Shown here: positions 22,454-28,697 of the stretch, piece after piece
Layout of the letters: every line of letters begins with the position of its first letter
Numbering within the stretch: the stretch's first letter is position 1
NCBI GenBank assembly: GCA_028710405.1
Contig: JAQTUD010000003.1
Coordinates: forward strand, 1 to 36,999
Length of the DNA stretch: 36,999 nt
Direction of reading: 5' to 3'
Source: Candidatus Omnitrophota bacterium
GTDB lineage: Bacteria > Omnitrophota > Gorgyraeia > Gygaellales > Profunditerraquicolaceae
Program-made: the position numbers and the translations under genes
Notes under the pieces: generated by a model
What the model was told of the DNA's origin: nothing
The model's database searches: none
The model's input: the letters and a program-made list of their open reading frames with translations, nothing else

Positions 22454-23716
22454 ATGGTGAATAAAAGCAAGAGACAGATAAGGCTGGAACAGGAGATAGA
22501 GAGGTTGCGTTGCCGTCTTAACAAGGTTCAAGATGAGCTTCGGGTTTCAAACAAAAAGGCACGCCAGATGTCGTTCATAGATATCCAGACTGGGCTCTTT
22601 AACCATCAATATCTTGAACGGGTCATGACAGCGGAGTTGCGCCGTTCCCAGAGGTTCGCTTATCCGGTTTCACTGATCGTGTTGGATATAGATTATTTCA
22701 AGTCTGTAAATGACCTCTACGGGCGCGTTTTCGGCGACTTTGTCTTAAAACAGCTCGCCGCTGAGTTGAAGAGCAAGGTGAGGGTCTATGATACCGTGGC
22801 CCGCCTGGGGGGAGGGGAATTTGTTGTATTATTACCCAGCACCGACGGGGCTGGCGCTTTAGCATTAAGCCGCAGGCTTTTGGATGGTTTTAATTTATAT
22901 AATTTCGGGGATAAAAGCCGCAAGGTAAAATTAAAGTTGAGCTTTGCGGTTAGCGCTTATCCTGAAGACGGCGTCGTCAATACAACAGATTTGCTCAACC
23001 TGGCCCAGAAGATCCTGAATAGGGCAAAAGAGGCCGGTGGTAATAGGGTTTATTCTTATGCGGATCTGGAGAAGGCGGATTCGCAAGAAATAGACCGTCG
23101 CAGCGATATCGGTTTCCTGAAATCCAAACTTGAGAAAATGACCAAGAAAACAAATCAGGGCCTGATCGAGTCAATATTTGCCCTGGCCAAGACCGTAGAA
23201 GTAAAGGACCACTATACCGGAGAGCACGCGGAGAACACGGTCCGCTATGCCACCGGAATAGCCAGGAAACTGAATTTATCCGAGAATGAAACAGAATTGA
23301 TCAGGCAGGCCGCCATACTGCATGACCTGGGTAAAATCGGCATAAGCGAAAGGATCCTGCTCAAGAAATCAAAGCTCACTAAAGATGAATTTGCAAAGAT
23401 CAAAAAACACCCGTATATTGCCGCGGATATCTTGAGGCCGATACAGGCGTTACATGACGTGATCCCTTTAATCTTTTATCATCATGAAAGATGGGACGGC
23501 AAAGGATATCCCAGCTCCCTCAAGGCCCAGGAGATACCTTTAGGAGCGCGTATAATCGCTATCGCGGATGTGTATCAGGCCCTGACATCTCGTCGGCCTT
23601 ACCGTAAGGCCTATTCCAAAAAGGAGGCCCTTAAGATTATCAAGTCCGGAGCCGGGACGCAGTTTGATCCGCAGATGGTCCGCGTATTCACGGAAGTCTT
23701 AAATAAAGAAAAATAG
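22454..23716 (+). CDS. GGDEF (degenerate GGGEF) + HD-GYP c-di-GMP phosphodiesterase-like protein
   Basis: LDIDYFKSVNDLYGRVFGD, RVYDTVARLGGGEFVVLL; HDLGKIGI, HHERWDGKGYP, ADVYQALTSRRPYRKAY. Confidence 0.9.
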   Translation: MVNKSKRQIRLEQEIERLRCRLNKVQDELRVSNKKARQMSFIDIQTGLFNHQYLERVMTAELRRSQRFAYPVSLIVLDIDYFKSVNDLYGRVFGDFVLKQLAAELKSKVRVYDTVARLGGGEFVVLLPSTDGAGALALSRRLLDGFNLYNFGDKSRKVKLKLSFAVSAYPEDGVVNTTDLLNLAQKILNRAKEAGGNRVYSYADLEKADSQEIDRRSDIGFLKSKLEKMTKKTNQGLIESIFALAKTVEVKDHYTGEHAENTVRYATGIARKLNLSENETELIRQAAILHDLGKIGISERILLKKSKLTKDEFAKIKKHPYIAADILRPIQALHDVIPLIFYHHERWDGKGYPSSLKAQEIPLGARIIAIADVYQALTSRRPYRKAYSKKEALKIIKSGAGTQFDPQMVRVFTEVLNKEK

Positions 23717-26066: not shown

Positions 26067-27095
26067 TTGAGGAAGGTTTCTCTGGTTAAGGGTGAGGATA
26101 GGTATGAGAATATAAAAAAGGCGCTTGCCTTAATAGGCAAGGACTTGGACGATATCCGGGACAAGAAACGCATTTTGATAAAGCCGAATCTGACGGCTAC
26201 TAAAAACAAATTTGCCAATACGGATGTCCGGGCTGTGGAGGCGGTGATAGATTTTTTGCTGGATACCTATAGTCAGTTAACCTCAAGCCAGATTACTATC
26301 CTGGAGGGTAGCGGAAGCGCTTATTACGAGAAGAAGACAACGAGGCAGGTGTTTGAGGATTTCGGTTACTCTAGGCTAGCCAGGAAATATGCCAATGTGA
26401 AACTGGAATGCGTAGAAGACTTTTCCGAATTCACGCAAGCGCAAATTATGTCCATAGCCGGGCCGGAGAAGATAAAAATCGTAAAACGCTTATCCGATTT
26501 TGATTTTAGGATATCTGTGGCAGTGCCAAAGGTCCATAATTACGCCATTGCCACTTTTGGCATAAAGAATATGGCGGGATTGATTATGCAGGAGGACAAG
26601 TCCTTGCTGCATGGTTTACGTACTCCCAGCGCGCCGGAGGCAAAGACTATATTTACCTATATACCTACATCGGCCATCTCATGGGCAAGGAGAAGATTCC
26701 CCGGGTTAGTGAACATGGTATTTAAGAAATCTATGGCTTATATGAAGGCGGTCAAGGTGATCCACCGGAATGTGGCGGATTTAGCTAAGGCCACCCTGCC
26801 GGATATGGTGGTGTTGGATGGATTTTATTGCATGGACGGTAATGGCCCGGTAGACGGCTTTCCCGTTGAATTAAAAGCAGCGGTATGTTCCATGGATGCC
26901 TTGAAGGCAGACGGGGTAGGGGCCAGGCTGATAGGCCTTGAGCCTTCCGAGATAGGATATCTTTATTACCTCAGCCAGGATAAGGTGGGGGATTATTCTT
27001 TAGATGGCTTAGTGGGGGAAGACCTAAAGCAGGTCCGGAAGTTCTTCAAATTACATCCTACCTATAATATCCAGAAAAAATGGAAAGATTCTTAA
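26067..27095 (+). CDS. DUF362 domain-containing protein, TTG start
   Basis: ILIKPNLTATKN, RISVAVPKVHNYAIATFGIKNMAGLI, VVLDGFYCMDGNGPVDGFP: DUF362 motifs. Confidence 0.82.
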   Translation: MRKVSLVKGEDRYENIKKALALIGKDLDDIRDKKRILIKPNLTATKNKFANTDVRAVEAVIDFLLDTYSQLTSSQITILEGSGSAYYEKKTTRQVFEDFGYSRLARKYANVKLECVEDFSEFTQAQIMSIAGPEKIKIVKRLSDFDFRISVAVPKVHNYAIATFGIKNMAGLIMQEDKSLLHGLRTPSAPEAKTIFTYIPTSAISWARRRFPGLVNMVFKKSMAYMKAVKVIHRNVADLAKATLPDMVVLDGFYCMDGNGPVDGFPVELKAAVCSMDALKADGVGARLIGLEPSEIGYLYYLSQDKVGDYSLDGLVGEDLKQVRKFFKLHPTYNIQKKWKDS

Positions 27096-27586
27096 CCAAT
27101 ATCCGGGTAAGATTTTTTTTGTTATTGACTATAGCTATCTTTTATCCCGCTTCTATTTATGCCCAGGAGAATGTTGATCTGGCGGATAGGGTAATCGCCG
27201 CGACATTCAAGACATTAGCAAAGGGATATACCGTTGGCGTCAATATCGATAAATTAAAAGAAGATAGCATAGCTAAGCTTCAAAGAATGGATGAGGATAA
27301 ATTCAGGAAAAGGTATGCCGAAGTTTACGCGGCCATAAAGGACCTGCCACCTGAGCTGAAGCTTAAATATAGGATATCCCAGGATATGACTAAGGAGCAG
27401 GTTATTTCCGCCATAAGTGGCGCGGATAAGAAAAAGATATATGAGTTAATAGATTCTGTGCCCGATAAAGCGATATCTACCCAATTTAAGAAATACTTGA
27501 TTAAGAAGAAGCAGGATATACAGAAGAGTAATATCGCCGCGCAGGTCAACAGGGCTTGGGAGAGGATAACAGGGAAGATAAAGTAG
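27080..27586 (+). CDS. secreted hypothetical protein
   Basis: Signal peptide FFLLLTIAIFYPASIYAQ; charged helical mature region; overlaps the preceding stop. Confidence 0.6.
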   Translation: MERFLTNIRVRFFLLLTIAIFYPASIYAQENVDLADRVIAATFKTLAKGYTVGVNIDKLKEDSIAKLQRMDEDKFRKRYAEVYAAIKDLPPELKLKYRISQDMTKEQVISAISGADKKKIYELIDSVPDKAISTQFKKYLIKKKQDIQKSNIAAQVNRAWERITGKIK

Positions 27587-27610: not shown

Positions 27611-27638
27611 TTGACAAAGACCTAAATTATGTTATACT
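27611..27638 (+). promoter_or_regulatory. sigma70-type promoter TTGACA-N16-TATACT for the riboswitch transcript
   Basis: TTGACA 27611-27616, 16-nt spacer, TATACT 27633-27638, just upstream of the aptamer. Confidence 0.8.
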
Positions 27639-27664
27639 TATAGTGTAAAAAGCACTTTTGACAA

Positions 27665-27756
27665 TTTGGCCTGTCCTACTGAAAAGGTAAACCAGTAGTA
27701 ATACTGGGGCGCAAAGCTACAGCCCCGACGGTAAGTCGGGGGGCTGAGCTGCCAAA
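27665..27756 (+). ncRNA. cyclic di-GMP-I (GEMM-I) riboswitch aptamer
   Basis: GGTAAACC, P2 CCAGTA-GTAA-TACTGG with GNRA loop, GGGGCGCAAAGC core, P3 CAGCC..CCGAC-ggtaa-GTCGG..GGCTG, GAGCTGCC; closing P1 TTTGGC/GCCAAA. Confidence 0.88.
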
Positions 27757-27765
27757 GAGGCGTAT

Positions 27766-27795
27766 AACCCTAAAGATGCCTTTTAGGGTTTTTTT
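27766..27795 (+). terminator. intrinsic terminator of the GEMM expression platform
   Basis: AACCCTAAA-7nt-TTTAGGGTT followed by TTTTT. Confidence 0.85.
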
Positions 27796-27800
27796 GTGTG

Positions 27801-27848
27801 CCCCGGTTATCATCTGCTTTAAGCGCAGATGGCCGGGGTTTTTGTTTT
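27801..27848 (+). terminator. second tandem terminator-like hairpin
   Basis: CCCCGG-ttat-CATCTGC-tttaagc-GCAGATG-g-CCGGGG followed by TTTTTGTTTT. Confidence 0.75.
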
Positions 27849-27891
27849 AAGGGGTGGGTAAGATCCGCCAATGCAAAGGAGGTGAGCGGGA

Positions 27892-28151
27892 TGAAGAAGG
27901 ATAAGGAGGGGGTAAAAGCAGGGTTGAGTACCCACCGTGTTATCACCAAACTGGACCGCAGGGAGATCGATTTCCTGGATAAATTAGGAAAAGACGCCCT
28001 TTTTACTACAGGACACAAGCTCTCGTATAATGAGATATTAAGAGGGCTGATTGATTTTGCCATGGTGTCCGGTATTTCAGGGGATAATATAGATTCTACT
28101 CTGACGTTAAAAGCGAAATTACAGCAGTGGAGCAGGCAAAACAGCAGTTAG
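27892..28151 (+). CDS. small ribbon-helix-helix-like protein, downstream of the riboswitch
   Basis: RBS AAAGGAGGTGAG then ATG at 27892; THRVITKLDRREIDFLDKLGKD..TGHKLSYNEILRGLIDFAM resembles RHH; the supplied ORF start (27798) lies inside the terminator. Confidence 0.55.
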
Positions 28152-28173
28152 ATATTATAAAAAGGAGGATCAG

Positions 28174-28635
28174 ATGAGAATTAGAACTATTTTATTGGCT
28201 TGCGTAGTTGGCGCGGTTGTTTCAATGTTGGCGATGGCAGGAGCCTACGCCAATGATCAGGATATCTACTATGACAGCGATAATCAGGATATCTACTACG
28301 ACGGAGATTATCACCATATCTACTATGACAGCATTGTGGCCGATGATATTGCTTATGAAAATAGCCCGATAAATAAACTGGGGCGCGGCACGATCAATAC
28401 CGCGACCTGCTGGGCAGAAGTGCCGGCGCGCGTATTCGAAGTATCCAACAGGCATGACCCGCTTACCGGCTTTACTTTAGGTACGGTGGAAGGGGTTTTT
28501 ACCGGGATATTTCGCGGCTTGACTGGTATATTTGACGCGGTGACATTTATTATCCCCCCCTATGATGAGCCGATAATGCAGCCTGAGTATGCGTTGACCA
28601 GGGCGGATAGGGAGATCAAAGAGTATTTGTGGTAA
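28174..28635 (+). CDS. TIGR04073-like (exosortase system-associated) secreted protein
   Basis: Signal peptide; INKLGRGTINTATCWAEVPARVFEVSNRHDPLTGFTLGTVEGVFTGIFRGLTGIFDAVTFIIPPYDEPIMQPEY matches my recollection of the TIGR04073 pattern. Confidence 0.7.
   Translation: MRIRTILLACVVGAVVSMLAMAGAYANDQDIYYDSDNQDIYYDGDYHHIYYDSIVADDIAYENSPINKLGRGTINTATCWAEVPARVFEVSNRHDPLTGFTLGTVEGVFTGIFRGLTGIFDAVTFIIPPYDEPIMQPEYALTRADREIKEYLW
28255..28332 (+). repeat. in-frame tandem repeat, period 27 bp, about 3 copies (D-x-Q-D-I-Y-Y-D-S)
   Basis: GATATCTAC / GATATCTAC / CATATCTAC at 28261, 28288 and 28315. Confidence 0.9.
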
Positions 28636-28651
28636 CCTCGTTGTTCAAGCA

Positions 28652-28697
28652 AAATAAGGGCGCTTTTTTACTATATAAAAGGCGCCCTTATTTTTTA
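28652..28697 (+). terminator. strong (possibly bidirectional) terminator after the TIGR04073-like gene
   Basis: AAATAAGGGCGC..TTTTTTA/ATAAAA..GGCGCCCTTATTTTTT. Confidence 0.88.

Follow-up and report, generated by a model that had tools for sequence, protein, structure and literature searches.

A c-di-GMP-I riboswitch conserved with a small ribbon-helix-helix-like gene family in Omnitrophota

The window, which is the whole 36,999 nt stretch of DNA analysed here, belongs to contig C62 of an Omnitrophota genome assembly that is 1.16 Mb in size and 87% complete. The assignment to Candidatus Omnitrophota comes from relatives of the 86-aa protein listed below. A complete transcription unit is found at positions 27611–28694. 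The initial annotation of this DNA had noted a promoter, an aptamer, terminators, a small ribbon-helix-helix (RHH)-like open reading frame with its ribosome-binding site, a TIGR04073 gene and a final terminator, and all of these are present where it had placed them. The features are as follows.

27611–27638, + strand: sigma-70-type promoter, TTGACA-16-TATACT with TG before the -10 element (11/12 consensus bases)
27658–27669, + strand: conserved leader motif TTGACAATTTGG (consensus TTGACAATTWGG) in the interval between promoter and aptamer (two copies in the genome)
27676–27756, + strand: c-di-GMP-I (GEMM-I) aptamer, P2 with GUAA loop, P3 a continuous helix (RF01051, 69.2 bits)
27751–27763, + strand: candidate antiterminator strand GCCAAAGAGGCGU, overlapping the 3′ end of the aptamer (pairing and energy)
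27776–27789, + strand: candidate antiterminator partner AUGCCUUUUAGGGU, in the loop and 3′ arm of T1 (pairing and energy)
27766–27790, with U-tract to 27797, + strand: intrinsic terminator T1 (-10.3 kcal/mol)
about 27800–27839, with U-tract to 27844, + strand: T2, a second, stronger terminator-like hairpin (-25.5 kcal/mol)
27875–27885, + strand: strong ribosome-binding site AAAGGAGGTGA (read from the sequence)
27891–28151, + strand: RHH-like open reading frame of 86 aa, Omnitrophota-specific family (open reading frame and family profile)
28174–28635, + strand: TIGR04073 protein of 153 aa with a signal peptide predicted by eye (75.3 bits, cut-off 50)
about 28651–28694, + strand: strong terminator closing the unit (-24.8 kcal/mol)

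Of 157 related GEMM sites, 73% have a promoter with at least 10/12 consensus bases on their 5′ side, versus 3% in shuffles. Directly 5′ of the unit, at 27080–27586, is a 168-aa protein with a signal peptide predicted by eye; no Pfam or NCBIfam family was found for it.

The aptamer call passed the covariance-model check: in the window scan, the RF01051 match at 27676–27756 scores 69.2 bits against a gathering threshold of 35, with an E value of 1e-11. The aptamer itself is ordinary. The P2 hairpin (27692–27707) carries a GNRA-type loop, GUAA, and the CUAA/UAUGG tetraloop receptor (CUAA and a matching bulge) is absent from the alignment of the window aptamer, where P3 is continuous. The ligand-selecting position, 20 in Vc2 numbering, is a G within GG-T-AAACC. 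This G before YAAACC had been read by eye in the initial annotation, and it is invariant in 31/31 aligned aptamers. Aptamers of this class that sense 3′,3′-cGAMP, termed GEMM-Ib, exist in Geobacter, and in a cGAMP riboswitch the A20G substitution switches the specificity to c-di-GMP (PMC6456294). That the riboswitch of the window senses 3′,3′-cGAMP and not c-di-GMP is very improbable, however, given a G at the selecting position of every aligned aptamer (n=31) and ordinary GGDEF signatures in the genome. Seven GGDEF domains are encoded there, and the four distinct ones with a readable signature have the usual aspartate of GxxxxGD where Hypr enzymes have Ser/Thr. Specificity for cGAMP was rejected on G20 and these signatures, which together favour c-di-GMP as the ligand. 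The window itself encodes two diguanylate-cyclase-type proteins and one GGDEF/HD protein. The latter, at 22454–23716, has the active-site motif GGGEF and is probably a degenerate cyclase fused to a phosphodiesterase-type HD domain.

GEMM-I sites are present in 96 of 98 related genomes, often several in each. A profile of the 86-aa family detects 59 distinct members in the 98 genomes, and a GEMM lies 55–515 nt upstream of 48 of these. Two of the 11 members with no GEMM upstream are at contig ends. A scan of 85,462 GTDB species genomes with a single conserved peptide pattern, which might overlook distant members in other phyla, recovered 64 members; every record is named Omnitrophota except one named only 'bacterium'. 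A c-di-GMP-I aptamer is located within 1 kb upstream in 57 of the 64, and a purpose-built RNA model shows variant or interrupted aptamers before several of the others. The riboswitch–gene association noted at one locus thus recurs in relatives, and, with GEMM sites numbering a few per genome, it is far beyond chance. The genome of the window has a second copy of the arrangement on contig C64, consisting of promoter, GEMM, T1, a second hairpin (T2) and an RHH-like gene. Aptamer, T1 and RHH-like gene are conserved as a unit across the phylum.

Some GEMM-I aptamers are interrupted by GC-rich REP-like hairpins of the CCCGCCA..TGGCGGG type, at core junctions beside the ligand pocket or in P2 (L113:1151-1275, L142:1230-1355, L238:2537-2765, L130, L103 and L052). 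The insertions in L142, L113 and L238 adjoin the ligand-binding pocket.

The initial annotation had presented the RHH-like gene and the TIGR04073 gene as a pair under GEMM control. What stays constant behind the riboswitch is the RHH-like gene; the TIGR04073 gene is one of several variants downstream. The TIGR04073 assignment itself was confirmed by a full-length domain match (75.3 bits, cut-off 50), and such a gene follows the RHH-like gene in 10 of the 48 GEMM-RHH units, including that of the window. At seven further loci TIGR04073 comes after a GEMM with no RHH-like gene. In 13/48 units, as counted by motif, TIGR04073 is replaced by a putatively secreted family of 85–135 aa whose members have xVSCxIPAIPGVNAP close to the N-terminus and end in Y-S-R at the C-terminus; it directly follows the RHH-like gene at L133, L127, L131, L140, L143 and eight other loci. 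A 63–68 aa family continues 5/48 units, and the remainder continue with other genes. GEMM-RHH units also contain basic microproteins of 32–45 aa with a K/R/H-rich head and a FLEALRLYxGMP tail. This microprotein family is unannotated, has ribosome-binding sites, and is found mostly behind GEMM-I riboswitches in Omnitrophota (L038:1957-2180, L047:1303, L176:1573, L236:822 and L300-L329); in the genome of the window, contig C64 carries two copies.

The link to exosortase-type biology was not supported. No match to the exosortase family PF09721 was found in the 87%-complete genome, and PF09721 is present in 24 of the 98 relatives. Among 59 genomes of the taxonomic family to which the window belongs, 26 have TIGR04073, 10 have PF09721 and four have both, which is about what chance would give. 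The connection was accordingly rejected for this genome, and the name of the family is no guide to function here.

Other GEMM sites have different genes behind them. The commonest Pfam families among the first genes behind 79 such sites, counts that are biased towards high-scoring GEMM sites, are GH1 (11), peptidase C39 (7) and TPS (3). On contig C105 (L002), a strong GEMM-I precedes the gene of a large exported protein that carries a peptidase C39 domain, and similar C39 genes are behind six other sampled sites. A weak GEMM-I match on contig C36 (L004:1501-1632; 29.4 bits, below the cut-off) precedes three small proteins that resemble Flp/class III signal peptide pilins.

At the amino acid level, the 86-aa protein displays a strand-helix-turn-helix pattern with an R-V-V-T-F-L strand. 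The AlphaFold monomer (pLDDT 81) has an extended N-terminal strand region followed by helices at residues 23–40, 46–60 and 70–85. Searches of Pfam, NCBIfam and the PDB gave no match to the family, and PHROG gave none above chance. Foldseek with the model returned nothing significant, PDB structures included (E above 0.2); its viral neighbours include small transcription regulators with TM 0.68–0.72 and E above 1. Alignment by hhalign to a hand-made RHH profile, which is possibly a poor one, gave 0.5%, the level of column-shuffled controls. Of the RHH-like description in the initial annotation, the helix order is thus compatible, and the family searches, Foldseek and hhalign do not add a significant match. 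An RHH fold is plausible from the predicted helix order, and the protein is hypothesized to bind DNA. That it is instead another small helical protein, e.g. an adaptor or one that modulates the secreted partner, is a real possibility. The lack of matches in Pfam, NCBIfam, PDB and PHROG, the hhalign score at control level, and the failure to find an operator-like motif enriched beyond GEMM leaders are all consistent with such a protein, but the strand-helix-turn-helix pattern with its R-V-V-T-F-L strand, the three AlphaFold helices and the small transcription regulators among the viral neighbours (TM 0.68–0.72, E above 1) point to the RHH type.

At the RNA level, the aptamer and T1 do not overlap: the aptamer ends at 27756 and T1 starts at 27766, 10 nt after it. 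A T1 equivalent is found in 42 of 48 homologous leaders. The strand GCCAAAGAGGCGU (27751–27763) can pair with AUGCCUUUUAGGGU (27776–27789) to form a 12-bp competing helix of -11.7 kcal/mol versus -10.3 kcal/mol for T1. Two C residues in this helix presumably correspond to the ligand-pairing region of Vc2. The same pairing, between the post-aptamer strand and the loop plus 3′ arm of T1, scores a mean z of -1.13 ± 0.22 against shuffled strands in 41 related leaders, and -3.5 in the window. Swapping strands over all 109 leaders worsens antiterminator pairing (p 0.0002), whereas swapping within the RHH set does not make it significantly worse (p 0.21). Locus-specific covariation is therefore modest, and was dropped as a claim for the RHH set; the antiterminator pairing is more a conserved consensus than a locus-by-locus covariation. 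A P1 formed by the strand 5′ of the aptamer and the post-aptamer strand is weak across leaders (mean z -0.32 ± 0.13). The minimum free energy fold of the full leader prefers T1, and folding the leader with T2 included yields rearranged aptamers.

In the proposed mechanism, RNA polymerase would start about 7 nt past 27638 and then transcribe the aptamer. With c-di-GMP bound, the aptamer would retain its 3′ strand (27751–27761), T1 would be free to fold and transcription would stop. Without ligand, the 3′ strand would pair with the T1 loop and 3′ arm as a 12-bp antiterminator, and read-through would lead to expression of the small putative DNA-binding (RHH-like) protein and of the secreted TIGR04073 protein. 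The known OFF switch Cd1 allows aptamer and terminator to form side by side, and its antiterminator sequesters the C that pairs with the ligand; in the pilM riboswitch, an ON switch, aptamer and terminator share a strand and are mutually exclusive (PMC9262584). An OFF switch is expected here because the window has the Cd1 topology. By topology and energies, the leader is probably a transcriptional c-di-GMP-I riboswitch of the OFF type that controls the two-gene operon, with c-di-GMP switching it off at T1. An ON switch, in which c-di-GMP prevents T1 and the operon is expressed at high c-di-GMP, is unlikely. Many GEMM-I riboswitches are ON switches, such as that of pilM (PMC9262584), and the rearranged aptamers in folds that include T2 would be in keeping with this direction. 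However, the pilM terminator shares a strand with its aptamer, whereas T1 in the window begins 10 nt downstream with no overlap, and the strand that does overlap the window aptamer pairs with the 3′ arm of T1.

T2 is very stable and no obvious antiterminator for it was found. A T2-like hairpin is present in 31 of 48 related leaders and, by the pattern used, missing from 17. Probably it lowers basal expression; the OFF-switch mechanism does not account for passage of the polymerase through T2. In an alternative reading, the two terminators would effectively lock the leader in the OFF state, and expression would need a second input, e.g. a protein that binds the leader as DNA or RNA, which might be the RHH-like protein itself at the TTGACAATTWGG motif. 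There is a precedent in Bc1 of Bacillus thuringiensis, a dual-terminator riboswitch in which T2 masked the response to c-di-GMP (PMC11218506).

The 1.16 Mb genome has exactly two copies of the TTGACAATTWGG motif, one at window positions 27658–27669, 18 nt before the aptamer start, and one on contig C64 (G000:C64:16791-16802). Both copies are upstream of GEMMs that precede RHH-like genes. A scan of the 98 genomes gave 58 matches versus 32 for the reversed pattern; about 26 of the 58, by our own count, are in GEMM, RHH or microprotein leaders, and 20 of 30 inspected loci lie 17–114 nt upstream of a GEMM. No excess was found outside GEMM leaders in these genomes, and a regulon-wide operator for the RHH-like protein was rejected for that reason. 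In many leaders a complementarity of the form (W)GG(U)...(A)CC(U) can be made out by eye, and the motif may be an autoregulation operator or the 5′ side of a hairpin in the leader. Some genomes with no detected RHH-like gene have the motif in their GEMM leaders as well, which disfavours a pure RHH operator role. A locked leader, for which the Bc1 precedent, the stability of T2 (-25.5 kcal/mol), the T2-like hairpins in 31/48 leaders and the confinement of the motif to GEMM-RHH leaders within the window's genome may be cited, is rather unlikely in view of the motif's occurrence in genomes such as G047, which have no detected RHH-like gene, and of the 17/48 leaders in which the pattern finds no T2.

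If the small protein binds DNA, the unit would relay c-di-GMP to a regulator of its own, from second messenger to RNA to protein. More broadly, and only tentatively, the data may describe an Omnitrophota-wide c-di-GMP riboswitch dedicated to undescribed small DNA-binding regulators, a two-step relay with the leader element TTGACAATTWGG, tandem terminators and exchangeable downstream proteins, these being the TIGR04073 proteins, the 'IPAIPGVNAP' proteins and the basic microproteins. The open-access papers searched contain nothing on riboswitches or c-di-GMP signalling in Omnitrophota, which is weak evidence as few subscription journals were covered; none was found that treats a c-di-GMP riboswitch together with a ribbon-helix-helix protein, and none mentions TIGR04073. 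The aptamer class is known, but the gene family under GEMM control is undescribed in the papers searched.

Omnitrophota are almost entirely uncultured. The near-obligate pairing of a well-understood RNA sensor with an orphan family provides a testable physiological signal for that family, and a handle on how these bacteria behave when c-di-GMP is high or low. Behind the other GEMM sites sampled are genes for glycoside hydrolases, C39-type peptidases, two-partner-secretion (TPS-domain) proteins and probably Flp-like pilins. The units would also present recurrent natural tandem terminators behind a c-di-GMP riboswitch, an arrangement so far discussed for Bc1 as rare.

Compared with known systems, the riboswitch of the window shares with the RF01051 class G20, the 3′ CC of the pocket, the GNRA loop on P2, a promoter on the 5′ side and an intrinsic terminator on the 3′ side. 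Type I members have an 11-nt-type tetraloop receptor in P3, which the window aptamer does not, and the receptor is not required for the class; a GUAA instead of a GAAA loop together with a continuous P3 is a recognised subtype. What differs from known GEMM-I riboswitches is the downstream partner, which is undescribed. The 86-aa protein resembles ribbon-helix-helix proteins (CopG/Arc/omega) in its small size and predicted strand-helix-turn-helix order, but its helices are separated by about six more residues, a third helix follows at the C-terminus, and neither sequence nor structure scores are significant. TIGR04073, termed 'exosortase system-associated', is here in a genome in which no exosortase was found, and some of the TIGR04073 genes lie under GEMM.

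With Cd1 of Clostridioides difficile, the window shares an aptamer and terminator that can coexist and, at the level of sequence and energy, a competing helix that takes the 3′ strand of the aptamer and sequesters the ligand-pairing C; it differs in having a second terminator, and its direction of switching is predicted. With Bc1 it shares a c-di-GMP-I aptamer followed by two intrinsic terminators, a weak one and then a strong one. Bc1 precedes mcpE, whereas the type found in the window precedes an orphan regulator-like gene and has tandem terminators in 31/48 leaders.
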